From assembly GCA_020543525.1 (NCBI GenBank), contig JAHYIO010000033.1:248001-312000 (forward strand): 64,000 bases of DNA, read 5' to 3'. Under the pieces are notes generated by a model that saw only the letters and a list, made by a program, of their open reading frames with translations, made no database searches and was not told where the DNA came from. Source of the DNA: Coriolopsis trogii. Lineage: Eukaryota; Basidiomycota; Agaricomycetes; Polyporales; Polyporaceae. Both the position numbers and the translations under genes were made by a program. Each line of letters starts with the position of its first letter. Positions within the stretch are counted from its first letter, which is position 1. Shown here in pieces: positions 8,867 through 51,797 of the stretch.

Positions 8867-9203
8867 GCTGGCCGAGTAGAGGGGATATGAAGTTGCCAGA
8901 GATGGAGAGGGAAGGGAGCGAGGAGTGGTCGTGGGTGACGATGACGGTAGTCACAGAACAGGTCAATACGTGTTCCTGGTCCGACACTAGCCTGTGCAAA
9001 GGCTGATAGAACGTGTTTACTAATGAAACCTTGACTTTACTTACCCACTTCATTATTCGCCCAGAAGCCCGGCTGATCCGCTACTATCGCGAGCTACTAG
9101 CGCCGAGCTATGTAATAAGTCTCAACGACACTTGCTATACTCTCCACCTTGGATATCTCCCACCACCCTACGACTCACGACGTCCCTCCGCCTTCCCCGA
9201 GAC
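8867..9203. promoter_or_regulatory. Shared promoter of J-protein and FBXO9-like genes
   Basis: A 337-bp divergent intergenic region. No clear TATA box or named factor site was recognised. Confidence 0.4.
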
Positions 9204-10862
9204 ATGCAGGCGGCACAGGCGACCGTCGAGGCGGAGCCAGAGGAACTTGTGCGTTTTCGTCAGCAATGGCTCGAGGAGGTGCGAAGCAAGAAGAAACCAC
9301 GCTCGAGTCAAGACGATCTCGCCCCTCCCGCTGCCTCCGCTGTGCCATCGACGTCCAGCGGAGATGTACGAGCGGAACCCCATACGTCTCCTGCACCTCG
9401 TTCTACCCAACACCACTCGCCTCATGATGCTCCGACCTCTCCGCCAGCAGCCGCACGCAGACCGATCACGTCCACCGCCATGCCTCCCATGGGACACGCT
9501 CTGAAACGCGCCGTTCAGGTATACAGGCAGGCCGTACAGGCTGAACAGCGAAGCGAGCTCAATGACGCCCTTCGGTTATACCGCACTGCATTCAGGATGG
9601 ACTCGAACGTTGACCGAGCGTACCACTTGATGGAGGAAGAGGTGCACAGGCAGGCGGCCGCAGAGCATAAGCCGCCTCCGCCGCCGCCCGCACAACATCG
9701 CAAGGCAGGTTCTGTAGATGCTGTGACACACGACTTGCAGAGTATGGATCTAGGTCGCGGTCCTGGGAGTATCCCGATCGCGCATTTGCGGAGAGACGGC
9801 GTTGTCACCGGGACGCTCGCAACGCTGGTTGCGTCATGGCCTGCAGAACTCAGCTTTGACCCGGAGGACGAGCAGGCAGGGGTTCCTATCAAGACTATGC
9901 CAGATGAGCTACTCGTGCTCGTGCTTCGCCTCCTCGATCATAGTGCCATTGAGCGGTTCGCTGCCGTCAATCGCAAGGCGCGTGTCATCACACTAGACGC
10001 GTCGATATGGAGGTTAGCATACTCCTCAGGTAGTCTGTCTTGTCCGTGGCTGACGCGAAACAGACCCATGGTCAAGACAGTATTAAGACCACCGCAGCTG
10101 GCAGACGAAGAGGAGCTGGAGGCGTTGATCTTGAAATACATGACGGACTTTCGCCGGGTATACATAGAACATCCACGCGTGCGGTACGATGGGGTTTACA
10201 TCGCTATATGCCACTACATGTACGTACCTCGTTCAATATACTGTCTCCCCCTGTTGATGTGGGATCATACACTGCTAAAGCCGGAACGGTATCGGCGAGA
10301 ACTCTTGGGTGAACGTACGTCGTTCACATTCTGCGCAGACTTCGATGGTGGGACTGACTCACCGGATCACAGTACAGTCATTTCGTCACATACTACCGGT
10401 ACCTGTACGTGCTTGCTTCCCTGGTCGAAACACCCTTACCGACAATTCATCACAGGAGATTTTATCCGGACGGGCAAGTGCTCTCCTATCTCGCCAACGA
10501 GGAGCATGGACCCGCTCAAGTCATACCCCTGCTGAAGCCCACAATGCGCTCAAAGGTATGACTTACCCGTTACAACCAATAGGCGCATTGCACTGAACTC
10601 ACTCAAGGGCTTCTCCATCGGTACCTGGTACCTCGAAGGAACCGAACTATACGTCAAGGACCTCCGCGACCCAAATGGTGGCGACGAGAAACGGTACACG
10701 TTCCAAATGCTCCTGGAGCTCCGGTCCCGCCCCCTTGGTCGCTGGAATCGTCTCGATTTCCGCTCGTACGACACTGTGGACGTCACAAGCGGAGAAGCAG
10801 AGCCGATCACACTCAAGAACGAGCGGCCGTTCTGGTTCTCCAAGGTCCGTTCGTACACATGA
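9204..10862 (+). CDS. F-box protein, FBXO9/Hrt3/Pof7 family
   Basis: Six exons: 9204-10012, 10064-10219, 10281-10314, 10373-10404, 10456-10555 and 10608-10862, giving 461 aa. Substrate receptor of an SCF ubiquitin ligase. A TPR-like segment (AVQVYRQAVQAEQRSELNDALRLYRTAF) precedes the F-box (IKTMPDELLVLVLRLLDH). The C-terminal half has the family landmarks FIEHPRVR-like YIEHPRVRYDGVYIA, YYRYLRFYPDGQVLSYL, KGFSIGTWYLEG, RYTFQMLLELRSRPLGRWNRL and the end RPFWFSKVRSYT. Start at 9204 is chosen because upstream residues are not family-like. The 51-nt first intron keeps the frame and has no stop, so a retained-intron protein is possible. Confidence 0.92.
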
Positions 10863-12245: not shown

Positions 12246-13845
12246 TTACGGCCTGATCCACTCCACATCCCGGACATGCTCACGCATGCAAGCAGCGTCC
12301 CCTTCAGTGATGGACGTACAGTACATGAAGTTGACAAGCGAAGGAGGAATGCCGTGCTCCGAACGGACCCTGAACGCATAGATGAGCTCGGATATGCACC
12401 TGGGCCTCATTCCGGCCGTGGTCTCCTCGTCCCACACGCTCTTCCCAAAGTAGACTGCGTAAAACGCGAGGGTTGTGAGCTTCGGGAGCAACAGCTCGAG
12501 CCTCCCATCCGTACGTGGACGGACGGCTCCAAGGGCCGCGCAAATCCCGCTTGAGGAGACGTCGCCAGAGAGGAGAGTGAGCCGGCTGACTTTGGGGACC
12601 CTTTGGAAGAACCACTCCCAGTCGGTATAATTCTCGAAGAGGTGGCTCGGCAACTCGAGGGTGCGGACGTTGGAAAACAGAGCCGTGGCTTCACGGACGA
12701 TGCCCGCCGTGATCAGGATCGCACGGTCCGCGTACATCCCCAACTCGAGGACGGGAGTCCACTCTTGCACGTCAGTCCACTCTTGCACGTCGTTCTCCTG
12801 GTAGATGCATCCAAAAAGCTCCAGAGTATCGCCATAGCTTCCGTCGCTGATCACTATCTCGTCGAACACTGCCGGATAGAACCGGACGAGCGAGGGCGTG
12901 AGCATGCTGATGTGAGCGCCGTTCTTCGCCGTGCAGTTTACGATTCGCAAGTCTGGGAGTGTGGTAGGGAACGACATGCGTTCGAGGAGAGCGCCGCATT
13001 CCAGGATGTCGCTTCCTCCTATACGAAGTGATCGGAGTCGGGGAAAGCAGAGGGCTCTGCGTTCGTTCGGAGGCATGTTGCCTTGAATCCCGGCAGCGGA
13101 CGGAATGAACTTGTTCAGTGTCAAGGCTTCCAAGGTCGGCGCCAAGAAGGTGAGCGCTGTCCACATGTCCTCGAATCTACCCATCAACTGCTGCTGGATC
13201 TCGCCATTGCACCACAAGATTCTTGAGCTCTAAATGACGCAGGTGACGAGCGGGGGTTTGGAAAAAATGCAGGAAGGATTTCGACGGATTAAACTCTAGA
13301 TCATCATCGTCTTTTGCAGTTAAAGTGATTGTTCGGAGTAAGACAGGTGATGAAATGACTTCGTCGCAAAAGGCCTGTATCAGTGGCGTAGGTGCCTTAC
13401 TGAGGACAAGTTCTTCGAGTCGTGGGGAAAGTCGTGCAGCAAGGCGTATCATCTCCAATGTTGTCTCCTCAGGCCGCTTGTCTGCAATTCCCCCCAAAGG
13501 GATTAAGAGAGATAGAGGAGTTTGTTCTGATCGAGAGAGGAATGTGGTGATTGCGTCCGCTGGCAGACGCCCGAAGGAAATTCTTGCCCAGAGTGATGGG
13601 GTAGACAACGCGACAGCACGCCAATAGCGTGAAACGTGAGCCATCCGAATCCAGCGTGGAGGTTCGTCAAAAAGCAAATGGAACGGGTGTTTTTGTGCCT
13701 CGTACCAGCGACGGGCGAGAAGGAGCATGATCTGGGAGAGGAGTTCTGGAGCGAGCTCTCCGAAGCGGCTGTTCTGATCGCTGCTAATGTTGCGATATAG
13801 GTTATTGACCTGAGATTCGCAACCATCTTCGTCCGAACGTACCAT
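12246..13845 (-). pseudogene. F-box protein paralogue 1, broken by an internal deletion
   Basis: N-terminal frame 13845-13177 and C-terminal frame 13217-12246 overlap in different phases. The first holds the F-box-like segment ELAPELLSQIMLLL and HVSRYWRAVALSTPSLW. The second continues with RFEDMWTALTFLAPTLEALTL and the C-terminal repeats. In the two neighbouring paralogues the junction holds about 22 more residues (VFRSPLTTLV...). Here they are missing and the frame slips at about 13185-13205. No splice pair can bridge this. A short 18-bp duplication (VQEWTD twice) lies at 12755-12790. Probably a recent pseudogene, or two truncated proteins; a sequencing error would not explain the lost segment. 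Confidence 0.7.
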
Positions 13846-14204
13846 GAAGCTCTTGCAAGCATATTTCCAGCCTCAGACTGAGGATAGTCGTGCAGCGAAG
13901 AATCAATGTGGAATGCGCCAGACTGAGCGATCGCATGAGACGTCCGTGTCAGTAAAGATCGGTAAATAACTCACGTTCGCACTTGCGTTCCATCCAGTCG
14001 TCGACATGGCACAACCTGAGTACTGTCATAAAACTCAGATCTGTCCCACCTGAAATGGGGCCGTCAACGCTCAGCGCTCAGCGCTTAGTCCTCCTAATCC
14101 TGTCCACGTGACCATCCCGTGGTCTTGAGTCTCCCCCCGAGACCGTGAAGTTCAATGACTCATTGACTGTTCTGGGGCTGGTACATCGTAGGTAACCCGT
14201 CCAC
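13846..14204. other. Intergenic between F-box paralogues
   Basis: No coding frame or repeat recognised. It may include the remains of a first exon or promoter for paralogue 1. Confidence 0.4.
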
Positions 14205-16381: not shown

Positions 16382-18022
16382 TCACTCTTCAAGAATATCG
16401 TCCCGGACATGTTCGCGCATGCGTGCAACGTCTTCCCTCGTGACACCCCGGCACTCCTGGAATGTGACATCCGACAATGGCATCCCAGCCTCCGCGCGAG
16501 TCCTCAGCACCGCCAAGAGCTCCAACGCGAATCGAGTCCGTGTCTCGTTCTTCATGTCCTCTTCCGACATGTCCTTGTCAAAGTTAGTCTCGGACAGCAT
16601 GAGCGAGGTGAGCTTCGGGACCAACAACTTCAGTTCTCCCTCCGCGCCGGACGGACAAACGGCTCCAAGAGCGTCGCAGAACCCGGTTGACGGGATGTCG
16701 CCCCTGTCGAGCGAAAGAGAGCTGAGATTGGGGACTGATTGGAAGAACGCCTCCCAGCAGAGACGGTCGCCAAACAGCAGACCTGGAGCGATAATCTTGC
16801 GGACATTGGCGAACAGAGCTGGGGCCTCCCGGACGAGCATCGTGAATGGGTGCTCGTCGCCCTTGTTGGTTGTGAAGAACTTGAGTTCGAGGAGTTCACG
16901 GCACTTGTGCCGGGCGTTCTCGTCATCCACGTATGCCTGGAGTTCCAAACTCGTGTCGTCGATAAACTCAATGTCCATGAAGATCTCGTCGAACACTCGC
17001 GGATAGAGCCGGGCAAGGGCGGCCGCGATCGTGGCAAATTCGGGGCTATCGCTGGACGCGACGGTGTCGATGGACAGCTTGCAGCTTGTCGAGAAGGAGA
17101 TGCGGTCAAGGAAAGCAGTGATTTCGCCAGGGTCGTCCACGATAGACATGTGTTGCAGTCGTGGGAAGGAGAGGTGCTCGTCCTCGATCAAATACGTGCT
17201 GCTTGGGAGCATCATCGCATCGGGGATGGCATACTTGAGGGTCAACGCTTCTAGCGACGGGGCCAGGGAGACGAGAGCGGTCCACATCTTTTCAAATGTA
17301 CCCATGTACGGCGGCTCCTTGTGGGCAACCAAGTAGATCCTCTCATGATCGATCACAAGGGTAGTCAAAGGCGAGCGGAAGACAAGGTCAGACCACTGCG
17401 CTGGGAGGTTGTGAAGTTCGAGATGGCGCAAGCGATGGGCCACCCTGGTGCCGAGGGGTGGGAGGATAGGAGGATCCCATGGGCCATAGTTGCAACCACT
17501 GTCGGATTCACCGGCAAGAATGAGTGTCTGAAGGACATCCGGAAAGGAGTCGACTTCAATGCAGAACGCTCGTATGAATCGTCTTGGCGCTGCGATGCGG
17601 AGCTTCTGGTATCGGGAGACAGATCGTGTAGCTAGTATTATCGCGTCCTGTAAGGTCCCTCCAGACAACGTTGACGCCTGTGTTTGCAAGACAAGCTCAA
17701 GCAATAAGGGTGCCTGATTTGAGCGCGCGAGAAACGTGATGAAGGCGTCTGCACTCCAAGTCTTGAAGGCGATCGTCGTCCACAGTGCCTGAGTAGACAA
17801 CGCAACAGAACGCCAGTAGCGTGAGACGTGAGACATTCCTACTTTCCAGAGCGGCTGCTCTCGAGGGAACTTTTCGCATAAATGCTGCCAGTCAAGAGCT
17901 GCGAAAACCATGATGTTCGAGAGAAGTTCCGCGGGAAGCCGTCCAATGTGGGACGAGTTAGAACGATTCTCGTTGAGAACAGCGCTAACGGCGAAGTTGG
18001 AGTTAGTGAGCATACCGAACAC
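16382..18022 (-). CDS. F-box/LRR-type protein paralogue 3, intact
   Basis: Single uninterrupted frame of 546 aa. The N-terminal F-box-like motif is IGRLPAELLSNIM...HVSRYWRSVALSTQALW (about residues 27-75). Leucine-rich, loosely repeated sequence follows to the C-terminus, which ends in GVTREDVARMREHVRDD. Such proteins form large, fast-evolving families in Agaricomycetes. By family they recruit targets to SCF ubiquitin ligases, but the target is unknown. This is the only copy of the three tandem paralogues with an open frame and is the reference for reading the two broken ones. Confidence 0.85.
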   Translation of the reverse strand: MFGMLTNSNFAVSAVLNENRSNSSHIGRLPAELLSNIMVFAALDWQHLCEKFPREQPLWKVGMSHVSRYWRSVALSTQALWTTIAFKTWSADAFITFLARSNQAPLLLELVLQTQASTLSGGTLQDAIILATRSVSRYQKLRIAAPRRFIRAFCIEVDSFPDVLQTLILAGESDSGCNYGPWDPPILPPLGTRVAHRLRHLELHNLPAQWSDLVFRSPLTTLVIDHERIYLVAHKEPPYMGTFEKMWTALVSLAPSLEALTLKYAIPDAMMLPSSTYLIEDEHLSFPRLQHMSIVDDPGEITAFLDRISFSTSCKLSIDTVASSDSPEFATIAAALARLYPRVFDEIFMDIEFIDDTSLELQAYVDDENARHKCRELLELKFFTTNKGDEHPFTMLVREAPALFANVRKIIAPGLLFGDRLCWEAFFQSVPNLSSLSLDRGDIPSTGFCDALGAVCPSGAEGELKLLVPKLTSLMLSETNFDKDMSEEDMKNETRTRFALELLAVLRTRAEAGMPLSDVTFQECRGVTREDVARMREHVRDDILEE

Positions 18023-20649
18023 ATTTCAGGTACCAACGGTCATACCATGGAGTCATAGTGTATACCTGCGTACACTTTCCGTCGTGTCTGGAATGGTGCA
18101 AGTTGCACAGTGCTAGCGCTGATGCTTGTCCCCGAGCGGATTGTCATTCCCTAGTACACTTCAGACTTGAACACTGAGTGGCGCACCTGTAGCCCGTAGT
18201 TCCCTGCCCTTCTGCTTCGAGTCGCAGCTGAGATCCTGTTGGCCCCGCCGGTGAGACTCGAGGACAGAGGTAATCAACTTGAAGCGCCGTGCCAGCAGAA
18301 AAGGCGACCGGGCCTTCGGCGTCGTTTTCCCGGGCCGGCTTCCCGGCGGCATAGTTCCTCAAGGCCTCAACGACGAACCACCGAGTTCATTGTTCTCCCT
18401 AATCCTATGCTACTGTTGTGCGACGTCGCTTCCAACTAGTCCTGGCCATCCATCCAAGATCTCCCTACTGTTCATTTTCTCCTAGTATGACTGTATGTTC
18501 TTCGAAATCTCTGCCATCTGAATCAGCCCTTAAACGGTTTTGTAGATCGGCAACGCTGTGAGTCCGCGGCCGCTGTGTCGCGACTCACTGGACACCAGTA
18601 AGGCATGTTTGACTAAGCAGATGTCCGAGCTGGAACCACAACTGTCAAGCTTCCATCAATGTTTTGCCTCTGGAGTAATACCTTGATTGTTAGGACGCAC
18701 CAAGGTGATCCGAGTCGCTAGGGTGCGTGCATTCTGCCTTGGATTCTTTCGACTACAGCAGTGCCCTGCACTGGACGTCCCATCATTTCCACCGTGGGGC
18801 AGACGCTATGATGCTGCATATGTGCGAACGTCTCCAGTACTCCCGCTGCCGCTTCTACGGTCAGGGTTGATCTCGAATAGTAGCTGTCTGAGTCAAACTG
18901 ATTTGTCGCGGTCTTACCAGCGACAATTTGCGGAGCTGCTGAGGTGTGTTACAGTTTGGGTCGGTCAGCACAGGTGGTTCGTGTGTTGTGTCAAGGCGCG
19001 AACTTGCCTGCCACAGACAGGACGTATGGAAGCGCAGCCGCTGGTGACTGCGGTGTTCGCGGTGGAAAGCATTCAGTCAGCCTCCTAGAGGATGTATGGG
19101 TGCTTCTCACCCGCTAGAATGCTGTTGAGAGCTGCGTGAATCCCGGGAATGGGCAAGTACCTAGTTTAGAGCTGCCAAGCCACATAACGGCACAATAGCT
19201 TATGTGACTGATGCTCGTACCCATATTGCGATCAGATGATGCGTCTTATTCGATCCATGGCCGGATAGCTTCATGACTTCCTGTTCCCTGCATCGAATTT
19301 GCTATGCAGCTGCACCACTTTCCGTCAGCCGGACCTGGTGCAATGCGCCACCTACTAGTCAAGAGCTGAACAGATTCCCGCATACATGTGCGCATATTGA
19401 ACCTTACATTTGGATGCATAGCCATAGAGGTCTTCCTTGGGCAGGCCTGCCCTCATATTGAGAACTCTCGCTGTCAACATAACTTCGTCTATGTGCTTTC
19501 TTCGAATCCGGAAACCATTCACGAAAGGAGAGACTCTAGCCAGAAAAAGAGATATCAGATGAACTATCCAGCAAGCAGGGCAATCGTTGAAGCAGTGGGT
19601 CTGATCGTGCCGGATGCGCGCAACGTCTTCGAGCACTTGTTCCTCGGAATCGCTTACATTCACTGGAGGGTACCAGTCGAGTCCGTTTTTGTAGCATGTC
19701 TAAAAGAATATGGAGTTATCGAAACATAGCTGAGGCTGTGGAGGACCACGATATCCTGGGCTGCACAATTGCGGGGTTCTGGGGACTGTATTGAACACTG
19801 AACCCCATTGAACACAGCATTGACGCAACTTGCATGGACTATTCTTAGGGCACTGCATTCCGGCGCCTGCACCTAACGACAGTCATAGTTAAAATGACAT
19901 ACAGGTTCATGGCTCGTACGCTCAGGTGACAACTGAACACAACGTACAACTCAATTGATTGAGCGCCAGGGGCGCAGTTTGTGCCATTTAGAGCACGCGA
20001 ACCGAACACTTAGCCGCAGCACCAAGGGGAGGCTGGTGTACCCAGCGTTTCCGAGTTGGACTTGCCACAGGGCAGCCATATCTGCGCCATGTCTACGGGC
20101 CCGTTGACCTTCGGAGGGCGAACATGGATGGCTCATAGGCTGCTGAGCGAGACGATGTAAACAAAAGTTGCCTATGACTGTGTTGCCGTCGTCTCCAACG
20201 GAGGACATCTCAAAAGCCACAACCGCCTTCTCCATTCATGTTACCACCTACTATCGACTTGTGCTGAGTGCTCGAAAGCATTCATCAGGGACGGATCGCC
20301 TGACGAAGAATCTGGAATTGTCAAATGAACTTCGCGCCACCATGTTGAACAGCACATGGAAGGCTATAACACTGTCCGAGCGCACTGTGCTGGCTACAAA
20401 GGATTTAGTTAGCAATGGTCATTAATATGGAGAGAAAATATGTGCATCGACCATACGCGGGAGATGGAGCCGCTCGGGTACCACATATAAGGCCCCATAG
20501 CACGCTAAGCCCTGCAGCAAGTGCCTCAGCTCCCATTCGCTACCGCATCCATTGTATCGAACATTCATAGGGTGAGCTGGGCAGACTCACCTGATCCTTA
20601 GAACGTCAAAGTGCTTTCTCACACCCTTGCTTCACACAACCTCAGCGAC
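18023..20649. other. Gene-poor region
   Basis: About 2.6 kb with no frame I can support as a gene. At about 19600-19663 on the minus strand a short stretch reading LEDVARIRHD resembles the VTREDVARMREH end of the neighbouring F-box genes, a possible relic of a fourth copy. Confidence 0.4.
20484..20491 (+). promoter_or_regulatory. TATA-like box of the Cys-rich protein gene
   Basis: CATATAAG about 160 bp before the ATG at 20650, consistent with a core promoter. Confidence 0.4.
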
Positions 20650-21153: not shown

Positions 21154-22440
21154 GTCTAACAAGGATGTGAGGGCGTCGGCCTGTCGACATCATGAGAATC
21201 GCTAGCAGTAAACAATTAGGCATGAAATCTGTGTCTCCAAACGATGTAAACCCTCAGATATTGACTCCATTGTACGATAGGGCGAGGAGAGTTAGTCTTG
21301 AGAATATACATATCTCGTGTTGTCCAACACCTATCACTTGTGCACGTGTTCTCAGAGGCGGCAAGCGTTGGTATGTCGTGTTCCCTTTGAAGTGAAACAC
21401 TTTGAAATAGCATTACAATGGTACTATAGAGACCATGTGATCGGCCACTTCCCACGGGGGACGTGCAAAATGATTTCTCTACTCTCTTCCAGAGGTTGCT
21501 ATGGGGTGAACCTATCCAATGTGAAAACCGTACTTCACCCGATCGTCTTCACTGGCAGCGAGATCATCAGGGTTTGTGCTGATATATTCGCCGAGGCACG
21601 TAGCGCACAAAGAAGGCGGTAATGGATTGGTGAAGATATAACAATAAACGTACTGGTCCAGCCGCAGGTGGCAGCTTAGCATGTGGGCCGACGTCCGTCG
21701 TAGAGCAGATGGTAATATGTTCTGAACATTGCAAGCTTTTGGAGAGGCTTCAGCGCGACGCGGTGTGTACAACATCAGGACCAAAGGCACAAAAGAAGCA
21801 AAGAAAGGGGGAGACATACCGGGTGAGTTATGAGTCTCCTCGTATCCTTGACTGAAGATGACTTAGATCGTGTCGGTGATGGCCAGACTCGGAAGGTGGC
21901 AGGCGAAGAGCGAGCGCTCTCATGTGTCGCGACTGAACGCGGTCAGTACTATTTCCGTCGGAGGCTTCACCAAGCATAGCATAGATCAAGATGCCTAGGA
22001 GATACACAGATGTACTGGAGGGGGGATTTGACAATAGGGATTAGATTGGACGAGTCCGGGAGCGAGATTTGATCAAAAGAGCGAGAGCGCTGCATCTGGC
22101 TGCGTGGGAACGGAGGCCCATACTGAAACTTGCCCTTCCCAGGCTGTCATCTCTTCCGACCTAGATCGCCCACCTTTCTGAGCTCGCGAACCACTCCGTA
22201 TCCGTCTGATATTTGAGTTCTCTTCCAACATGTTGAGACTGGATGTGGAACACTTGCGTCCGACGGCTCGCGGCAGCAGGCCAGTGGGAAGACTACTAGT
22301 ACAGACATCCGATACACTGCCACGTATCACATACATCGGAGAGGCTTCCTTTACGTTGAACCATGTTGAACCTTGTGCCTTTACCCCCTGGCTACATCGT
22401 GCGACCCACTGCTTCTTGCATACGCTTACTCCGGTGAGTT
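21154..22440. other. Intergenic, possible degraded membrane-protein fragment
   Basis: Minus-strand reading around 22034-21700 is hydrophobic in pieces (YLLGILIYAML; FFASFVPLVLMLY) but interrupted by a stop and lacks convincing splice sites. I cannot build a gene from it. Confidence 0.3.
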
Positions 22441-22742
22441 CTAAACCCGAGCTGTAATATCGTACCATCCATCGGTTACGAAGCACCTGTCGACCCTGAA
22501 CAACTCACTCACTGGAAGCAGGATGAATAGCGACGTGGACACGGCTATTCTGAACACCTCCGCTGCCATCTACAACGGGTACTCGTTAGCCTCTGGTTCC
22601 CCATCCGACAGGGCAGGCAGCATTGAACATATGGGGCTGCCTGACGCGACTCACCTTTAGGGACAACTACAGCCTCGACTACAGGCGCTGTTGACATTAT
22701 AACAACGGAAACGAGCGCGACAAATGCAAGTACAAAGCGCAT
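22441..22742 (-). CDS. Short secreted peptide A (new array family)
   Basis: Three exons: 22742-22655, 22569-22513 and 22451-22441 (an 11-nt last coding exon), giving 51 aa. Residues 1-24 form a strong signal peptide (MRFVLAFVALVSVVIMSTAP...). The rest is about 27 residues ending GGVQNSRVHVAIHPASTRV. Donors are GTGAGT in both introns (85 and 61 nt). The model is supported by copy B, which shares exon lengths of 88, 57 and 11 nt, phases and the terminal Thr-Arg-Val. There is no cysteine or CaaX box. A TATA-like TATAG lies about 116 bp upstream and the shared box about 250 bp upstream. I recognise no family; function unknown. Confidence 0.75.
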
Positions 22743-23549
22743 GATGACAGAGGAGGAGTGGGCGATCAAACTGCTGCTGCTGCGTCCGGCTGCGTTGCCG
22801 CAGGTACTTATGCGACCAAGAGATTCGTTCATTTCGGATGCTGACTTGTACCCGCGCTATACGGTGACCTTTGTCTCGGCCTCCGTTGAGATCTTGGGGC
22901 AGCAAGCCCTCTACCTTAGACCGTTCATAGAAACGGAATGGTACTATGGATTCCAGGTTCGGTCGTTACGTTGGCTCTGATCGGGTGTATACTGACAGGC
23001 TTTGTGGCGTGTGGTAGGTACGTACTAGGCCCTGTTAGGCAGAAACACCTTCCTTGAAGACACTCAGACACATCCTCTTCTTCATGTGTGCACACCAACT
23101 AGCCTTGCTGTCCGCATGTGAGTTGACCCCATGACCTTCCTCTGTCATGCACCACCACTCATTCAGAAGCTGACCAGCGTTCCGTGAACAGCGTAGGAAT
23201 GGTCTACGCGCGGGTGCAAGTACGGAGCGGTTACTTTGGCATCTCCTCATCAGGGAGCACAGCACATCCATGTCGCCCTACGTATCAGCATCTCTTATTG
23301 TCGGTCGCCGGGTCCACTGTAAACATGTTGATGTCTCTCTATTGTTGAGGAGAGGTGACATTAACGAATCGTGCCTTGCGGACACTGCCTGTGGCGCAGA
23401 GACTGGAACAGGGTACTCCATAGAACGTTTAGATTCGGACTCCCACGAACGAATTTGGTACGTGACGAATCAAGGATGGATAGGTCCTTTCAGAGTCAGA
23501 CTCTGCTTTTTGACTGACAGCGAACCTCTATCATACTTCGGTGAGGTCT
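22743..23549. other. Spacer between peptide genes A and B
   Basis: About 0.8 kb holding the promoter of gene A, including its conserved box. No further coding sequence was recognised. Confidence 0.5.
22993..23018 (-). promoter_or_regulatory. Conserved upstream box of peptide gene A
   Basis: TGACAGGCTTTGTGGCGTGT... on the plus strand. The same box lies before genes B and DC (24101-24126, 25327-25352) at 250-280 bp from each ATG, and is absent where no gene start follows. Confidence 0.6.
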
Positions 23550-23839
23550 TCATACACGAGCTGCCGTTCAATGTGATCAGTCACGTAGCTCATCTCTGGA
23601 TACAGGTATCTCACTCACTAGAAGCAGGAGCAATCGCAATGTGGGCGCGACTTTGTTGGAGTGCTCCGCCGCTGGCTAGTACGGCGAACAGTCAGCGTAT
23701 ACTGCTCTTCGCGATGCGCCCGAGTGAACGAGGCTGTCTGACAGGACTCACCTCTAGGGACAACCGCCACTGCGACCGCAGGCCCGGCCGATATCGCAAT
23801 CACGCACACGAGCGTTATGCACGTCAAGATGAACCGCAT
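23550..23839 (-). CDS. Short secreted peptide B (new array family)
   Basis: Three exons: 23839-23752, 23675-23619 and 23560-23550, giving 51 aa. Signal peptide MRFILTCITLVCVIAISAGP..., then a Val-Pro-Arg junction and the tail GGALQQSRAHIAIAPASTRV. Exon lengths 88, 57 and 11 nt equal those of gene A. Introns are 76 and 58 nt. The peptides differ at about half of their positions while the splice layout is unchanged, so selection on both protein and structure is likely. A TATATAG box lies at 23931-23937. The Val-Pro-Lys/Arg at the exon 1 end could be a processing site, but that is only a guess. Confidence 0.75.
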
Positions 23840-23930
23840 GACGGCGCAGTATGAGTTGTACGGACGGGAGACAAGGGGTGGTAGCGGATGGGAAGGTGCT
23901 TTCAGTGGCTCGTATCAGGTATGTCTGCTG

Positions 23931-23937
23931 CTATATA
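23931..23937 (-). promoter_or_regulatory. TATA box of peptide gene B
   Basis: TATATAG on the minus strand about 95 bp before the ATG at 23839. Confidence 0.5.
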
Positions 23938-24100
23938 GCTCGTCCCCTCGGGTGCTGACTTGCACCTGGGCCTTTCAGCTTCCATACTCGATCGCGCTCT
24001 CTCCTTATCTTGAGCTTCTTTCTCGATCGCAGGTCAGACGGTCCCATGAGCTCCAGACTCGGTAACAGTTTATGATTTCGGACACAATGCCGCCGGGAGC

Positions 24101-24126
24101 TGACAGGCTTCGTGGCGCATGATAGG
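24101..24126 (-). promoter_or_regulatory. Conserved upstream box of peptide gene B
   Basis: TGACAGGCTTCGTGGCGCAT then GATAGG on the plus strand, 262 bp from the ATG of gene B. Nearly identical to the boxes before genes A and DC. Confidence 0.6.
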
Positions 24127-24480
24127 TCCGGAGAGGCTGGAATGCATCCGATTGGGGACAAACGCACGCGTTCTCTTCTGCACATGCAGGGACTCGACGT
24201 CCTGTCCGTGGTCCGCGTGAGCATAGTAGCTCAGCGCTCCGAACACCGCGTAGATACTGCTAGACAAGTTTTGGCGTCGGGCTGGGCTCCCGTGAACCTT
24301 CGTAGGACAAGACGGTCTCACGGACCGAGGAGCACAATGCGCCCCTCATTGGGACGAGCGTATGTGACTGGGGACAATCGTTCACTGCGCCATGCATGTC
24401 TAGACGCAGCGGCTACCTGTATATAGTACAATGCGAGACACAATAAGCGATCGTATCGTATCGGACGTTCATAGGAAGGA

Positions 24481-25049
24481 TCAAAGCTGGGCTGTTTCAT
24501 ATAGCGCCGTCAGTCACTATTTTCATTCTCCTCTGACTGGGGTAGAACGCACTAGGAGTGGGAAGAATGCGGACGTGAGCCTTGCTTCCTTGATGACCTC
24601 CGTTATCCTCTGCGCGTTCAAATGGTCAGTACCGAACGCAACCCAGTTGCGTCAAGATGCATGCTTCATGCCTCCGGATTCCTGGGATGCTGAGGCCGTT
24701 GGCAGAGACTCACCTCTGACAGCAAGGGACGGAGTAGCGACTGCAGGTACAGCTGGTCTCCCGAAGGGGGGGGAGGTGGAGACATCGATATAAGATCAGT
24801 CTCATTTTCATGTACGACTATCAGTGCGCGCACCAGCAGTAGGGTGGATGAAGACATGGAGCTTACTACCCTGGATCATGCCATCAGTGCTTGGAGCAGG
24901 CTCTACGGATCGTAAGAGGTGAGCAACGAGCGTCATCAGTCCACTACCCAGAGCTCACCTCTAGGCATGATTGCATACGCAGCTGCAGGCATGACCGACT
25001 TTGTGGCAGCGAGCATGACAGATAAGGCGACCATAACTGTGGGCTTCAT
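24481..25049 (-). CDS. Two-module secreted peptide precursor DC
   Basis: Five exons: 25049-24959, 24902-24834, 24752-24714, 24609-24553 and 24491-24481, giving 88 aa. Residues 1-26 are a signal peptide (MKPTVMVALSVMLAATKSV...). Module 1 has the core DGMIQGSKLHVFIHPTA. A hydrophobic linker exon (AVPAVATPSLAVR) resembles the end of the signal exon in genes A and B. Module 2 ends NGGHQGSKAHVRILPTPTQL. Each join falls in phase 1, as in A and B, and the last exon is again 11 nt. Module 2 has no ATG and no upstream box of its own, which supports one gene with an internally duplicated module rather than two genes. Function unknown. Confidence 0.65.
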
Positions 25050-25119
25050 GATATCTGCTGGTCGAATGGGAAGACTGAATCAGAAAGGTCGTTGCCTGAA
25101 TATGTCTCGAGGGTTTGAA

Positions 25120-25125
25120 TATATA
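25120..25125 (-). promoter_or_regulatory. TATA box of peptide gene DC
   Basis: TATATA on the minus strand about 70 bp before the ATG at 25049. Confidence 0.5.
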
Positions 25126-25326
25126 CTCAACGCTGACCTCACGGTCTTCTGTGCTACTTGCACAACGTGATTCTCGATATTGCACGTACCTGGTCTTCAC
25201 CCGTCCTTTGACTCATGTCTAGCTTCTCGCTCGTCATTGCATACCTAAGCCACCTTCCCTCGGCGACGAGTGTACCATGTGATCCCATTGAGTATCAGTC
25301 GTATTGGACGCGATGTTGATGGACGT

Positions 25327-25352
25327 TGACACACTTCGTGGCGCACGATAGA
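25327..25352 (-). promoter_or_regulatory. Conserved upstream box of peptide gene DC
   Basis: TGACACACTTCGTGGCGCAC then GATAGA on the plus strand, 278 bp from the DC ATG. Matches the boxes of genes A and B at most positions. Confidence 0.55.
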
Positions 25353-25589: not shown

Positions 25590-26852
25590 TCAGAAGTGCT
25601 CATCGAATTGGGCGGGTATGTAGAAGGTGAGGACGCCACCGGCGTCGGCGACGTTCCCTATATACACGTAGAGAATCATGCAATGGTTCTCGCATATACC
25701 TGCAGAATAAGCATCGCTCAACATGCAAAGCGTGGAAACATGTCAGCGGGGCTAGGTTGAGGTACGCACAGGCAATAGTCGTGGTAGACACGACATGACT
25801 GTTGAGGAACTTCAGGAGACGCTTGTGGGAGACGAGCACGCCATGCATCTGTTTGGGATCCTTTGGCTCGGGCTCGTCTCCGTCTGGATTTTGGCTCGCT
25901 GGATCCCTCGCTATATGCTATCGCTCAGAAGGCAGCACACAAATAGACGATATTGCAAGAGCGTACTCATCGGAGGGTTGGTCAACCCGCTCCAGGCAAC
26001 CTCTATACGCGCGTTGTCCGTGCCTGTCGCGAGTTGCAGCTCGCCCGAGTGGTTTGCACGGAAAGAGATGCCGTCGGAGGCTAAAGGACGTAGTCTGTCT
26101 ACGACTGTGCGCATCTTCGCCAATGGCGGTAGGAGAATATGGACCTAACCATAGGACGTTCGTCAGTGGTAGCCCAGTCGCTCAAGAAGATGACGGGCAT
26201 ACGTCAGGTTCGGGACACATGGGCTCCTTCAGCCGCTCTATGTCGCCATGACGCAAGACGTCTATCAGAAGCTGCTGAACAATATTCATGGTGCGGCCCA
26301 TAGCGTTCGTCGACGATATCTCGAAGCTGAGGACGGACTTCTTCTCATGGTTTTTAGCGAGTCTGATGGAAGTATGTCAGAACTTGGTCTTTGCTCGTGA
26401 CTGTCAGAGCGTACTTCATGATGATCTGAGTGTCATTGGAGGAGAATGCGCTGGAGGAGTTTTTGCCTGACGTGGTTGAGGAAGCAGAACGTAAGGCTGC
26501 GAGCAGGGCTTCCGCCAGTACAGAGATGACGATCTCGTTGTTCGAGTTCGACTGTATGCGGTATTCCGTGAACAAAGACGAAACTTTGATCTGTCTGTGA
26601 GATTGTCATGAGAGTCACAGTCGTCAGGATTGTACCGTTCAAACTCACGACCAGACTTGTATGCCCCCTTCGTTGACGTCTCCGGTGCATATGATACGCA
26701 TCTCGTGCTCTGCAAACTTGATGATGCATGTCTTCTGCAGTTTCTCGACGGATTGCACGATTTCTAGGCCTCTGTCAGCGCGTGCCAAGGCTTCAAACGC
26801 CTGACTTACTGACGAAGGTCTCGACATTTTCTATGTTTGCTCTGAATCGCAT
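25590..26852 (-). CDS. HUS1: DNA damage checkpoint clamp subunit Hus1
   Basis: Seven exons: 26852-26810, 26763-26649, 26594-26415, 26362-26203, 26144-25967, 25910-25770 and 25699-25590, giving 308 aa. Hus1 is one of three subunits of the PCNA-like 9-1-1 ring loaded at damaged DNA to activate ATR signalling in the nucleus. Landmarks are MRFRANIENVETFVKIVQSV at the start, CIIKFAEHEMRIICTGDV, SLFTEYRIQSNSNNEI, HVVSTTTIACICENHCMIL and YIGNVADAGGVLTFYIPA at the C-terminus. Length is normal. The promoter shared with the BTB gene contains an ACGCGT box, fitting cell-cycle control. Confidence 0.96.
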
Positions 26853-32515: not shown

Positions 32516-33840
32516 TCAGCCAAGAACGAATTCGTGGAACCGAGAGCTGAAAACGGCCCCATCGTTGTCGGCGGACGCCATAACTGCACCATTGACGGAG
32601 AAGCATATGTGTCGGATGAAGGATGAATGGCCAGCAAGGTTAGCGACACATTCTCCATTGCTCGTCGTATACACTTCCATGTTGTTGTCGAGAGAAGTCG
32701 CCACATATTGACCATCGGGAGAGAATGAATGAACGACGAACCGGTCCCACGGTCCCTCGGTCTTGTCGGGCACCATCAAGACAGGAATGTAACGATTACC
32801 CGAACGGCCCAGCGGGTCTAGTTTGGGCTTGGTTCGGACGATTCCTAGAAAGTGCTCAGTCCGCCACCGAGAGTATCCTGGGGTCCACAAAAACCGCGGA
32901 TCACTATCCCTGAGTGCATATTCGGAGTTGTACATGTGTGAGTCGTATGTGTGATATGCAACGCGGCTCCCGTCCCATGATACGACTGCTGATCGCCTTT
33001 CGTTGTGTGCTTCAGGGTCTAGAATATCCCGTTTAGCGGCGGTCCTTATGTAATCCGTCAAGAGGCCACCATGATGCTGCACGTTGTTCTGTTCATCAAC
33101 CCGAACCATGGAGGAGTACTTTGCGTGGCAATAGTCGCACTCGAGGATAAAAAGACCTTCTATGGTGTGAGTGTAGCCCTCGACATATCCAAAATACCCG
33201 GGGCACGCGTCTCTGGCTTGCGAGTGATGTCGTTGTGGGGTGTCGACTATGTTCTCTTGGACGACCCCATTACGAAGACCAGCGATGTCCAAGTATAGGA
33301 GGTAACGTCGCGCAGGAGCGATCAATATCCAACGTCCCCCTGGGCTGACTGTGTGCTCCCGCACGCTTGTGCCAGCAGGCATGAATCCGAGGTCAATAGT
33401 GATCGGTTCTGCTCCGCCGAGTCGGGTGTAGGTCGCCGAGTCCCAGGCGTATACACTGCAAAGCGACTTCCCGCCGTCGACGAAGGAGGCTACGACCGTC
33501 CCGTTGGTGCACCAGTTGCAGGAGAATGAGTCAACGGTTCTAGATGTTCCCCAGTCCCCGTCCTCGCGAAGAGGAGTGTGGAGGGTGGTGACTACCGAAT
33601 TGGACTCAAGGTCCCATACGCATAAGCGCTTTTCGGCATTGTCATTCCAGTCGCCGTAGCGCACCAGAAACCGTCCATCTGGAGAAAACGCGAAGGATCG
33701 CCGGGAAAGCCAGGTATGGTTATCCCACTGGACCTTCACTTTGCCTGATTGGCTGTCCCAAATGATGAGGGTGTCGTTTTCGTCGCAACTACTGATCCAT
33801 CTTCCATCCGTTGAAGCAGAGAGCGATGTAATACTCCGAG
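32516..33840 (-). pseudogene. WD40-repeat fragment lacking a start
   Basis: An open frame of about 440 codons reads as WD40 blades: SITSLSASTDGRWISSCDEN, LIIWDSQSGKVKVQW, FAFSPDGRFLVRYGDW, VVHSFSPDGQYVATSLDNN and HICFSVNGAVMASADNDG. The frame is open up into the end of the F-box gene at 33853, where it meets a stop, and no in-frame ATG occurs before about residue 140. It is thus most likely the C-terminal remnant of a larger WD40 (perhaps NACHT-WD40) gene, or an exon set whose first exon I cannot find. Confidence 0.55.
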
Positions 33841-33852
33841 GATGCTTGTCCT

Positions 33853-35139
33853 TCAGACGTGCACAATCTGTTCGTATGTCTTGTGAGCGAATGGTGGGCT
33901 GTCATCTGAAACATCCAAATTACCGTCTGAGAACTTGATATGGAAGATGTTTCTCTGCCTCAAAGCGGGTAAAAGGTACTGTAGTCGGGTGGTCCATAGA
34001 CTGATTATCTCTTCACTGGCCGCAGGTAATTCGAAAGTCACCGTCCATATGAGTGACGCGTCAAGGAGAATGCTACGTTCCAGCATCTCGCAAGAGTCCA
34101 GGAGTTCAGCAGAGGACAGTGTTGACGTAACTTCGACACTTGAGGGGGGAGGTAGGAAGCGAACATGCAGAATCTTAACATTGGGGAAACAGTCTTTACG
34201 AAGCCATGGCACGAGATCCCGAATGGTTGAGCCGTCTGCACGTGGGATGCATGCATAACCCAAAGAAAGAGTGTGCAAACGGCTGAAGTAATGAGGGGAG
34301 GCGAGAGTTGATAGTTGTGACAGAGAGAAAATAGCAGAATGGGAGTCCGGGCTGATGACTTCGTTGAGCAAATCATGCGCTTCGGGACTGATCTCGAGAA
34401 CATTACCTTGTCATACCCGTAGCTCGTGACCCCAGGGACAAGACTTCCAGAGTACCATGACATGCCTGCAGCAGTGCAACCATGAAGGGCTGAGACATAT
34501 CGCGCCCGTCGCCCGACTGTCGATCCATCTCAGTCGCTGAGACGGGAACCATTATATAAAACTCACCGTATCCAGCGAGAGCAGATTTAACGTCCCTATG
34601 GTGTTCAAAGTCGTCTCTGTGTCTGGTGCCACTACCTTCAAGTCGTGCAGACCCAAGTGGCGGATGCCTGGAACACTAGAGAGGAAGGTCGCGAAGCGGT
34701 GGAAAGATGTAACCGTGACGTGACAGAGATTGAGTGTATCCAGGGACGGATAAGTTCGCAGCGAGGCCGTGATGATCCTTGACTGTGCAGCGGAAGAGCC
34801 CAGGCATAACGTATCTTCGAACGTCCATGTGTGTATGTTGGGGAGTTGGCCTAATAGGATAGCCACCGCTGCCTCAGCGACGCGGCTGTGGGCATGTACA
34901 CCTTGTACGGCGGCACGTAGATGGGGTACAATTTCAAACACGCGAAGTAAGTTGTCCAAATGTTGCTTGGCAACTATCTCAACGTCCTCGAAGAGACGGA
35001 GGCGACTCCGAGGAAGCCACGCGCGGCAGACCAGCGAGCAGGATTGGAGAGCTGATCTTTTGGAGCCTCCACCCACTACGTCTATGATTTGTTCCGCGAC
35101 CTCTGTAGGTACTCTTGGCTGCGTCGCGCTCGACATCAT
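33853..35139 (-). CDS. F-box domain protein
   Basis: Exons 35139-34567, 34489-34407 and 34351-33853, giving 384 aa. The F-box-like motif is RVPTEVAEQIIDVVGGGSKR...SLVCRAWLPRSRLRLFEDV (residues 8-55). Leucine-rich sequence follows, with LPNIHTWTFEDTL, LHTLSLGYACIP and NVKILHVRFLPP. It is a likely SCF substrate receptor of the expanded Agaricomycete class; the target is unknown. The second exon is uncertain: a closer acceptor at 34529 also keeps the frame, and the second intron uses a weak GTAATG donor. The WD40 remnant lies immediately downstream on the same strand. Confidence 0.7.
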
Positions 35140-35881: not shown

Positions 35882-38800
35882 CTACTCCATGAACGAGTAG
35901 TCATACTCCAGCGCAGACGGACTCGCAGGTCGGCTCTGGGAGTCGTCGTTGAGGAGCCAATCCCAAGAACCCCCACCGCTCTTCTGCGACTGCTTGCCGA
36001 AACGCGCCTTCCCCATAGCGCCAGCCGTAGTCACTCCATCTCCGAGGCCGGAAGGGCGGACGTCGTCATCGTCTGTAGTCCATTCGAAGACGTCGTTCCC
36101 AGTTCGCGTGTTCGGTATCCAGTCGTCCGTTCTCTTCGAGCGCGCGGCCGAAGTACTGGTGGACGGTTGGCTGGCGACGAGCGAAGAGTCGAATGGTGAG
36201 CAGGAAGGGGAGGCGATAGAGGAAGGGCTGCCAAAGGCACACCGCTCACCTCATTGCTTCCTGGGCCTGCTGCTGTCGCCGCTCCCTCGCAACCTGTAGC
36301 GGAGCTTTCGCACCTGACCCGCCAGCCTTCGTCAATGACGAGACGCCCGGAGCAGGCACGGTATCGAACCTCCGCGTCCTTGTGTTCGAGCTCGGTCGTG
36401 AGAGGTGGGACTCGGACTTATGCACAGTCACGGTCCCTTTCTTTCCCCATGCGACGAACGGCAGAGACTGCGACGACGAAGGCGGTGGCAGGTCAACGTC
36501 CTCTGCCTCCGCTTCGGGCCCACTCTCGTCGTTCTGTCGTGATACCGATACCGCCCGAGGTTTCGGACGAGGGCGCGGCTTCACCTTGACCGCCTTGGGT
36601 GTGGCATCGTCGGCGGGCACAGGCGACGTGCGTATATGGTCGACTTGGACATCGCTCTGCACCTCTCGCGTCTTCCGCCTGCGCTTCGTTGGCCCAGCAG
36701 CATTCGACTCCGCAGTGTCACTGCTCAATTCGATGACGACAGCACCAGCAGGAGGACCAGAGTTGCGTCCGGACGACTTCCGCTTACGACCGGAGCTCTG
36801 AGGGGAGGAGGACGCGGGTCCGGCGGACTCACCGTCGGTCTGCGCCCCGGGTGCTCTGGGCTTCGGTCGCGGTCGCGGTTTCGTCTTCGGTTCGTGGGGT
36901 TCCACTGCGAGCGCATGCGCCTTTGCTTTCCTCTTCGCGTCTGCCTTCGCCTTGCGCGCCTCTTCCTCCTCTCTCCGTTCCTCTTCCTCGAGCTCCTTCC
37001 GCCGCGCCCGAGCACGTTCCAAGAACATCTGCTCACCGGCGCCGAGCTTTCGACCTTTCGGACTCGCCACTCCGACAAGTTCTGCCTCGCCCTCGTCCGC
37101 GGGGAACATCGCGACCCCATACTCCACGCTCTCGCGGAGCGTCTCAATCGCCTTGTCACGGGGCAGCGCCAGGTCTTCGATGATGAGCCGCACGGCCGTC
37201 TCGGGCACAAGCACACGTGCGATGAAGTCCGACGGTGCGAGCGGGAGTGTCGCATCAGGGTGGAACTTGGCTGGCGGGAAGAGGTCACAGAGCGTTTGGT
37301 GCATGATGACGTACCCAAGCTCGCCGTAGCTAGAGAATCAACACACAGATTACAATCCCCGTCAGCGTCTTGCGGTATAAACGGGACACAGCACCGCCAG
37401 AGACACGCACTATCCCGGCTGGGCCTTGTTGAAGTTCAAGAACTGCCCGCGCACACCAGCAGCTTGGCGGGAGCCCTGCTGGCGCACGTTCTGCACAACT
37501 TCTTGCCAGAATTCGTTCTCCTTCCTGGGCCGCCGGCTGCTGCTCGCCCGAGCGACGTTGGAGGTATCCGTGAAGTCTTCATCGACGTCGTCAATGAGCG
37601 CTTTGAGGGCGCCCTGTATTCGCATGACTCTGTCCGCGAGCTTGTCCCACGCTATCTTCGTCGGCCAGCCCTTGCTGCGAGCGCGAGGGATCCAGTCGCG
37701 CTCGAAACGATGTCGTTGGCACACACCGACGAACGCAGCGAGGGGGGCGCGTAACCCGAGGGGATTGGACATACGGTCGTCTGGACGAGACACTCGTTTG
37801 GCGGCGACAATGAGAGAGCGCAACTGAGGCGTGGGTTCTTCGGGCAGAGGCTCGTCGCACCACGGACAGAGCGTCTTAGGGTCAATGTTAGGGTCGAGGA
37901 ACACTGCGTATGACAGTACTTGGTTAGTTGTTAGAAGTATGACATACGCATACACCCACTGTCATCGTCCGAGTCCGAACCATCATTCAGCACAAACTTG
38001 TTGAAGTTGTCTCGAGACCTCTTGCGATAGGAGTTGCCTCCGTGCTCGTCATCAGAGCCAGGGGTGACACGCTTGCTTAACGGTGAGATCTTCTGAAGGT
38101 TCGCGAGGACTTGTGTTTCCATTGGGAAGGGTCGCAACTCTCGCTGAGGCAGATCATCGTCTTCCGACGACGACGTGATGGCAGATCTCCTCTGCGCAGC
38201 GGAAGCTTTGATCTTCAAATGAGGAGGTGACGGTGTTTGTCGGGATGCGGGAGATGTCAAAGGGGACAGAGTGGGGAAGTTGGCAAGACGAGCTTTGCCG
38301 ATATGTTGGATGGGAGAGCTCAGAGGCGACAGGTCACCTATCGGGCTGGCACGTTCCTTCCCCTTCCCGCTTCCCTTAACCTTCGCCCGTCTAGCATGCC
38401 TATCCTCAAGGGTGCTTTTCTTGTCGTGTTGGGAGGAGAGCGGAGAAAGTGCAGCGAATGGGTCAGATTTCTCCGTCTTGCGCGCTCTCGTGGTAGACTT
38501 CTTGCGAGGAAAGCTTGTCTTAATATCATCAGAGTCGTGGTCTGATGAGTCGGAGGAAATTTGGATGGGTTCTTGTGCAGTTTGCGAGCGGGACAGCGGT
38601 TGGCTCTTATCCTGGGACGAATGCGCGCCTAGATCGGGTACCGTCTGCGATTTCCCGAGGCTACTTCTTGTACCTTTGTTCACGGGTCGCGGTGCTGGCC
38701 GAGAAGGGCGAGGAGTCCTGTTCATGTCGTTATCTTTGGCCAACTCCTTTCCTCTCCGCAATTCAACGTTCTCGCAAGGGGGTGTGACGGTTCGGCAAGC

Positions 38801-49683: not shown

Positions 49684-51797
<2,114 letters not shown>

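Follow-up and report, generated by a model that had tools for sequence, protein, structure and literature searches.

A 64,000-nucleotide (nt) stretch of the Coriolopsis trogii genome (contig JAHYIO010000033.1, positions 248,001 to 312,000), referred to here as the window, carries three short spliced gene models, A, B and DC, which were read from the sequence of the minus strand at 22441-25049. They belong to an apparently unannotated family of at least six genes with seven peptide cores, located at four places in the genome. The reading that was narrowly favoured assigns the array genes to a dispersed family encoding small prepropeptides, from which removal of a signal peptide and a kexin-like cut would release a linear extracellular peptide.

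Gene models and array architecture

GT-AG introns and phase-1 joins were present throughout A, B and DC, and all exons were readable. Genes A and B both have exons of 88, 57 and 11 nt and encode 51 amino acids each; their intron lengths are unlike (85 vs 76 nt and 61 vs 58 nt). DC encodes 88 amino acids in five exons (91, 69, 39, 57 and 11 nt), of which the last follows a 61-nt intron (intron 2 of unit C) and ends TQL-stop. The array comprises four homologous units, A, B, C and D, with D and C joined as DC. Its features are listed below; exon hydrophobicity was set against that of 60 further exons in the window that run from an ATG to a donor and are of comparable length.

22655..22742 (-), gene A exon 1, signal peptide, ends Val-Val-Pro-Lys; hydrophobicity unmatched among the 60 exons
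22513..22569 (-), gene A exon 2, core DGSGGVQNSRVHVAIHPAS
22441..22451 (-), gene A exon 3, 11 nt, TRV-stop
23752..23839 (-), gene B exon 1, signal peptide, ends Val-Val-Pro-Arg; 0/60 exons as hydrophobic
23619..23675 (-), gene B exon 2, core ASGGALQQSRAHIAIAPAS
23550..23560 (-), gene B exon 3, 11 nt, TRV-stop; 4/4 differences from A silent
24959..25049 (-), DC exon 1, signal peptide of unit D, ends Ile-Met-Pro-Arg; 3/60 exons as hydrophobic
24834..24902 (-), DC exon 2, 69 nt, core of unit D, EPAPSTDGMIQGSKLHVFIHPTA
24714..24752 (-), DC exon 3, 39 nt, VPAVATPSLAVR, apparent remnant of the unit C signal exon, converted into a linker containing a Leu-x-x-Arg site; alignment to B, repeat family D4
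24553..24609 (-), DC exon 4, core of unit C, EDNGGHQGSKAHVRILPTP
24481..24491 (-), DC exon 5, 11 nt, TQL-stop
22972..23017 (-), upstream element of A, common to A, B and DC, 46 nt, 230-275 nt before the ATG; repeat D1, 61% to the B copy
24080..24125 (-), upstream element of B; reference copy of repeat D1
25306..25351 (-), upstream element of DC; repeat D1, 74% to the B copy

The initial annotation had described minus-strand genes with a signal exon, a core exon, phase-1 joins and 11-nt last exons, and all of these were readable as claimed. Its three-gene array was retained as three gene models, which are built from four homologous units with D and C joined. The interval assigned to the array, 22441..25352, was narrowed to a coding part at 22441-25049, the remainder being the upstream element common to all three genes. 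Splice donors, described as conserved, were exactly so in A and B; those of C and D read GTGCGT/GTGCGC. The fusion-like appearance of DC and the dispersal of the family in the genome were absent from that earlier reading.

The upstream element is located 230-302 nt before the ATG of A, B and DC. Identity between units was 54-63% at -300 to -200, as against 36-41% in the final 100 nt before the ATG. The repeats of the array clearly indicate an origin by tandem duplication. No other close copy of the array DNA was found elsewhere in the 38.8-Mb assembly. A 22-nt repeat (D6, 82%) was present at 21417-21438 and 22937-22958, and places a piece resembling the upstream region of A about 1.5 kb further down. 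This might be the relic of a lost fifth unit; a loose core motif detected no core at that site. A short hydrophobic ATG-to-donor frame was observed on the opposite strand over the upstream element of A, at 22938-23012 (+), and visual inspection of the B and DC copies showed none like it. An antisense open reading frame (ORF) of 226 amino acids over gene B, at 23174-23851 (+), had no Pfam match, and was discarded as a gene and attributed to probable chance.

Coding evidence and selection

Over the whole coding sequence of A and B, synonymous divergence (dS) was 1.42 and nonsynonymous divergence (dN) 0.33, with corresponding proportions of differences (pS and pN) of 0.64 and 0.26 (Fisher test, 2.4e-5 on rounded counts). 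The differences fell at 14 first, 14 second and 30 third codon positions. When the seven 12-codon cores (A to D of the array and E, F and G, described below) were compared in all 21 pairs, which are not independent of each other, the pooled pS was 0.68 and pN 0.29 in frame. Controls in the two wrong frames reversed this relationship (pS/pN 0.29/0.43 and 0.32/0.41). In two core pairs pS was close to pN, namely C-E (0.42/0.38) and D-F (0.41/0.35). A and B are under purifying selection at the protein level. That the genes are coding is strongly supported by this codon pattern. The initial claim of short secreted-peptide genes with the layout given above is supported. A, B and DC are presumably transcribed and spliced as modelled.

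Dispersed paralogues and the core motif

Three further genes, E, F and G, were located on other contigs, each with a similar signal exon, a phase-1 intron and a core. Gene E, on contig C33, was detected as a weak own-genome match to B through its signal exon (E-value 0.056). This exon ends YYPR, and a phase-1 intron separates it from the core GEDGKLQRGGVHVAIHPS, which was read off afterwards. Gene F, on the same contig approximately 76 kb from E, was found via its core, with the signal exon read off afterwards. The signal exon of gene G, on contig C28, was matched by an averaged query (E-value 3e-4), and the core EAGKLQQSGAHVVVHPG was then found at the expected place.

A 17-place core pattern matched 7 places in the genome and none in the control; three of these were A, E and F, and the other four, which lacked a signal exon, were rejected. 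With up to one mismatch allowed to the core pattern (HVAIHP), 59 places were recovered compared to 22 in the control. A hydrophobic ATG exon with an intron and a phase-1 join was present at three of them, again A, E and F. The remaining 56 were discarded, 55 for want of such a model and one because its model was not hydrophobic. A wider pattern gave 10 places (control, 2), one of which (L086) was G; two others, L085 and L034, had no gene model. Two final genome searches added no member. Six genes is a lower bound, because the patterns were modelled on HVAIHP-like cores and those resembling B, C or D would escape them. The weak genome matches L012-L015 were set aside, L012 (C1) and L013 (C34) being near-identical copies of an unrelated stretch. 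This type of stretch occurs at several places in the genome and is probably a repeat or mobile element.

Upstream of G (L084), a motif TTTAATAAACCT or TTTATTAAACCT followed by GACTTTTTTGTCCG was noted twice, about 500 and 60 nt before the ATG. TATA-like boxes upstream were seen by eye or with a loose regular expression only. The neighbours of E with a Pfam match were a helicase and an FHA/G-patch protein, for which no counterpart was seen at the array. The helicase was rejected as being of the DED1 type found in the window, the best aligned stretch having 49% identity over 55 residues. No Pfam match was obtained for three ORFs around F.

All seven cores share the motif Q-x-[SG]-x-x-H-[VI]-x-[IV]-x-P. 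In a histidine-anchored alignment, Gln (-5), His (0) and Pro (+5) were invariant, with Ser or Gly at -3, Val or Ile at +1 and Ile or Val at +3. The Ser-(Arg/Lys)-x-His pattern that had been described for the array holds for the cores there, and Ser-(Arg/Lys) is restricted to those four; as a family motif it is replaced by the wider one. In six frames of the whole window, a loose form of the motif occurred four times, exactly at the array cores, three of which had a full model, C lacking its own signal exon.

Secretion and proposed processing

Each of the six genes has a strongly hydrophobic exon 1 (peak 2.6-3.2). None of the 60 other exons in the window equalled that of A, B, E or G, one equalled that of F and three that of D. 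Secretion of the peptides is likely from this property. Pro-Arg or Pro-Lys stands directly before the core in five of the six genes (A, B, DC, E and G), and the core of unit C is preceded by Leu-Ala-Val-Arg. The part of PMC8528282 that concerns Kex2 specificity gives a rule of Arg at P1, Lys or also Arg, Thr, Pro, Glu or Ile at P2, and an aliphatic residue at P4; Pro is among its five best alternatives at P2. Arg at P1 with an aliphatic P4 precedes four of the seven cores, those of B (VVPR), D (IMPR), G (AVPR) and C (LAVR). The site of E (YYPR) has Arg at P1, but Tyr at P4.

In the proposed pathway, exon 1 would encode a signal peptide (cut placed by eye) and a spacer of 4-6 residues that ends in Pro-Arg or Pro-Lys in five of the six genes. 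Signal peptidase would take off the signal, and a kexin-like protease may then cut after Pro-Arg/Lys at the exon 1/2 junction. Exon 2 would supply the core, to which the 11-nt exon of the array genes would add the final three residues. The predicted product is a linear, cysteine-free peptide outside the hypha, of 22 amino acids in A, B and C. A kexin cut would give N-termini as in DGSGGVQNSRVHVAIHPASTRV, ASGGALQQSRAHIAIAPASTRV and EDNGGHQGSKAHVRILPTPTQL, and the modelled product lengths were 17-22 amino acids for A, B, C, E and G and 36 for D.

Apparent fusion of units D and C

The DC gene looks like a fusion of the neighbouring units D and C. Its 39-nt exon, together with the first part of the intron behind it, aligned to the end of the B signal exon and to B intron 1, with a score of 37 compared to 27 for the best of 500 shuffles. 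C thus keeps the end of a B-like signal exon, without its start. The same test of the 39-nt exon gave p 0.06 against A and p 0.04 against D. The equivalent ends of exon 1 are spaced 1097 nt apart between A and B, 962 nt between B and C and 245 nt between C and D. In the simplest history, a deletion would have taken the end of D together with the promoter and signal start of C, and so generated a precursor with two cores.

Alternatively, DC may not be a working fusion: D would end by read-through (IHPTAGARTDSRT-stop) and C would be a promoterless relic. This is somewhat doubtful. It would agree with the lack of an ATG exon in C itself, with the probably weak donor of D (GTGCGC), and with a fusion alignment that is clear against B only. 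It does not account for a joined frame in which the 39-nt bridge is free of stops and phase 1 is preserved, nor for the retention in C of the Gln, His, Ile and Pro residues and of the 11-nt exon. If DC is indeed a fusion, comparison of closely related species offers a test of one way in which multi-core precursors originate.

Possible function and comparison with known systems

The likeliest role of the peptides may be that of an extracellular signal between hyphae or towards other organisms, although this is a guess and is put forward tentatively. It is favoured because three positions are invariant in otherwise diverging cores; the constancy of Gln, His and Pro hints at a single partner common to all, for example a receptor. 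The peptides might instead be antimicrobial or act in defence against animals, as would suit predicted secreted, short peptides that are duplicated and diverging. In Coprinopsis, according to PMC9769878, six knockouts of genes for Kex2-processed repeat proteins (KEPs) had no phenotype, and roles towards the biotic environment were suggested. A defence role is nonetheless unlikely here: the cores lack cysteine and are not strongly cationic, and their invariant residues would point to a specific partner over action on membranes.

The published KEP surveys (PMC6339444, PMC7329392, PMC9769878) admit only proteins in which three or more repeats lie between KR, RR, KK or RK sites. Their automated rules start from annotated proteins, and PMC9769878 also picked candidates by eye from repeat output. 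The present genes resemble KEPs, as these sources portray them, in the signal peptide, the short cores, the presumed kexin cleavage, the linear peptides and the two similar cores of DC. They differ in having one core (A, B, E, F and G) or two (DC) in place of at least three, and in lacking dibasic sites between cores, the junctions being PK, PR and VR, with RK in F only. The array family is not KEP by the published rules. As the genes fall outside those rules, such surveys may have left part of the secreted peptides of fungi uncounted.

The Kex2-processed pro-domain (K2PP) effectors described in PMC8528282 are similar in their short N-terminal pro-segment and in a non-dibasic aliphatic-x-x-Arg site, seen here in B, C, D and G. 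However, they are folded proteins, whereas short peptides are predicted here, with no known link to a host or to virulence. Ascomycete alpha-type pheromone precursors also yield a secreted, linear, cysteine-free peptide, as predicted for this family. D begins EPAP and G begins EA, which resemble STE13-type dipeptides; unlike those precursors, however, the family has no KR-site repeats, and an STE13-like start is present in two of the seven cores only. Plant-type small secreted peptides form small families with single-core precursors and one conserved motif. The present family differs in being fungal, in having the core at or near the C-terminus and in having no long variable pro-region, and no sequence similarity to the plant peptides is claimed for it. 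Basidiomycete a-type lipopeptide pheromones carry a C-terminal CaaX. They are synthesised in the cytoplasm with no signal peptide, in contrast to the signal exon of all six genes here.

No cysteine was found near the C-terminus in A, B and DC, nor in E and G if these end in exon 2. After the signal exon, there was likewise none in A, B and DC, nor in E and G read to the stop, which differs from cysteine-rich small secreted proteins and hydrophobins, whose mature parts carry conserved cysteines. The core of F has no cysteine, and its read-through tail would add three. No gene with the DUF3328/UstYa domain of dikaritin RiPP systems appeared in an incomplete Pfam scan that covered 40 ORFs of the window and 10 around E and F, in sequence where exons are short.

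The family might represent a hitherto unrecognised class of fungal peptide hormones with single-core precursors and a monobasic Pro-Arg cut, a proposal made with considerable reserve. If it were true, DC would record the birth of a multi-core precursor by the fusing of two adjacent single-core genes, and so a possible route to KEPs. Annotation easily misses such genes, because each has approximately 50 codons spread over two or three exons. The motif, the exon layout and the paralogues suffice for direct searches of polypore genomes, RNA-seq data and secretomes.

The 11-nt last exon and points against the proposed reading

The 11-nt exon is probably real within the array. A and B differ there at 4 of 11 positions, all silent (Arg, Val and the stop are kept), and random change of four positions preserved TRV-stop in only 0.31% of trials (P = 0.003). 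In dinucleotide shuffles of the 140 nt following each donor of A, B and C, an 11-nt terminal exon after a 50-70-nt intron arose in 4.1-5.4% of trials per gene, and in 0.6-0.8% when the intron was limited to 58-61 nt. When the 11-nt exon also had to end in T-[RQK]-[VIL]-stop, again after a 50-70-nt intron, the frequency was 0.05-0.075% per gene. Intron 2 identity was 46% between A and C (shuffles 44%) and 55% between B and C (shuffles 46%, highest 62%). Intron 2 of C is therefore no longer recognisably A-like, yet C keeps a 61-nt intron followed by an 11-nt exon. A [CT]T[AG]A[CT] branch-point match was present in intron 2 of B and C. The silent A/B changes, the rarity in shuffles and the persistence of the exon in C together support its reality in the array.

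Several observations weigh against the reading given here. No match to the branch-point motif was found in the place searched in A intron 2. Without the exon 2-3 splice, A and B would end ...PASSE-stop. The 11-nt exon was not recognisable in E and F by script, nor in G by eye. On read-through, E ends HPSA-stop and G HPG-stop, and F is open for more than 60 codons. The residue at P1 in A is Lys instead of Arg and the junction of F (GQ-GRK) is without Pro-Arg, so that the proposed kexin site is not invariant. A and B are 54-58% identical in their introns and 61-65% in their exons, the introns being nearly as alike. No annotated relative of A was detected among 5.8 billion protein sequences. A search of the same proteins with an alignment that comprised the whole of A and parts of five further cores (G excluded) gave one candidate and none at E <= 10.

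This lack of annotated relatives is weak evidence, because the protein search demands several exact 5-residue words, which makes it weak for peptides of approximately 50 amino acids, and because such genes easily go unannotated. The same database contains named polypore proteins. No published description of this peptide family was found in a partial coverage of the literature. The earlier statement that no known family has this layout met nothing contradictory, in a cross-species test that was weak.

The common 11-nt last exon, regarded at first as a hallmark, was upheld for A, B and C. It could not be identified in the dispersed genes E, F and G, and is therefore a property of the array that is not established for the family. 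Among candidate terminal exons for E and F, none was TRV/TQL-like, and the short last exons listed had no CTRAY branch point within 60 nt, so all were rejected. In F (L023), the frame after position 1519 allows a longer C-terminus if intron 2 is retained. The same family could exist with translation stopping in exon 2, the 11-nt exons being 3' untranslated region or chance. This would fit the in-frame stop within or right behind the donor in four of the seven cores (A, B, E and G), as well as the failure to identify exon 3 in the dispersed genes. It is quite unlikely, however, as C, D and F lack that stop though the GT donor is kept, and A, B and C each have an in-phase 11-nt exon 58-61 nt further on, with the silent differences and the shuffle frequencies reported above.

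Nucleotide identity alone fails to single out the exons, because the A and B introns are almost as similar, and coding status rests on the codon pattern. That there are no genes at all, and the array is a degenerated tandem repeat whose open frames arose by chance, would agree with this identity but is highly improbable in view of the codon-position pattern, the frame controls and the three dispersed paralogues.

Surroundings of the array

Five other features of the window were assigned from their domains:

1827-2963 (-), RED_N domain
32519-33901 (-), WD40 protein
36249-37337 (-), RTC4-like domain
46135-48237 (+), APP1 phosphatidate phosphatase
50292-51794 (+), DED1-type helicase

The DED1-type helicase matched proteins of Lentinus, Earliella, Trametes and Cubamyces with 89-97% identity across 70-84% of the query; these were among the dozen best matches, and proteins of other polypores, e.g. 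Ganoderma and Daedalea, reached 94-95%. The genome is accordingly that of a Polyporaceae-like polypore.

Some weaker matches were below the cut-off. Just upstream of DC, at 25603-25917 (-), there was a weak match to a HUS1-like C-terminus (E 0.013), and the opposite strand at 25756-26145 gave a weak match to P5-ATPase (E 2.5e-4). On the lower-coordinate side of the array, sub-threshold F-box-like matches were obtained in three ORFs, at 9027-10532 (+), 13180-13872 (-) and 16385-18025 (-), which possibly form a small F-box group.

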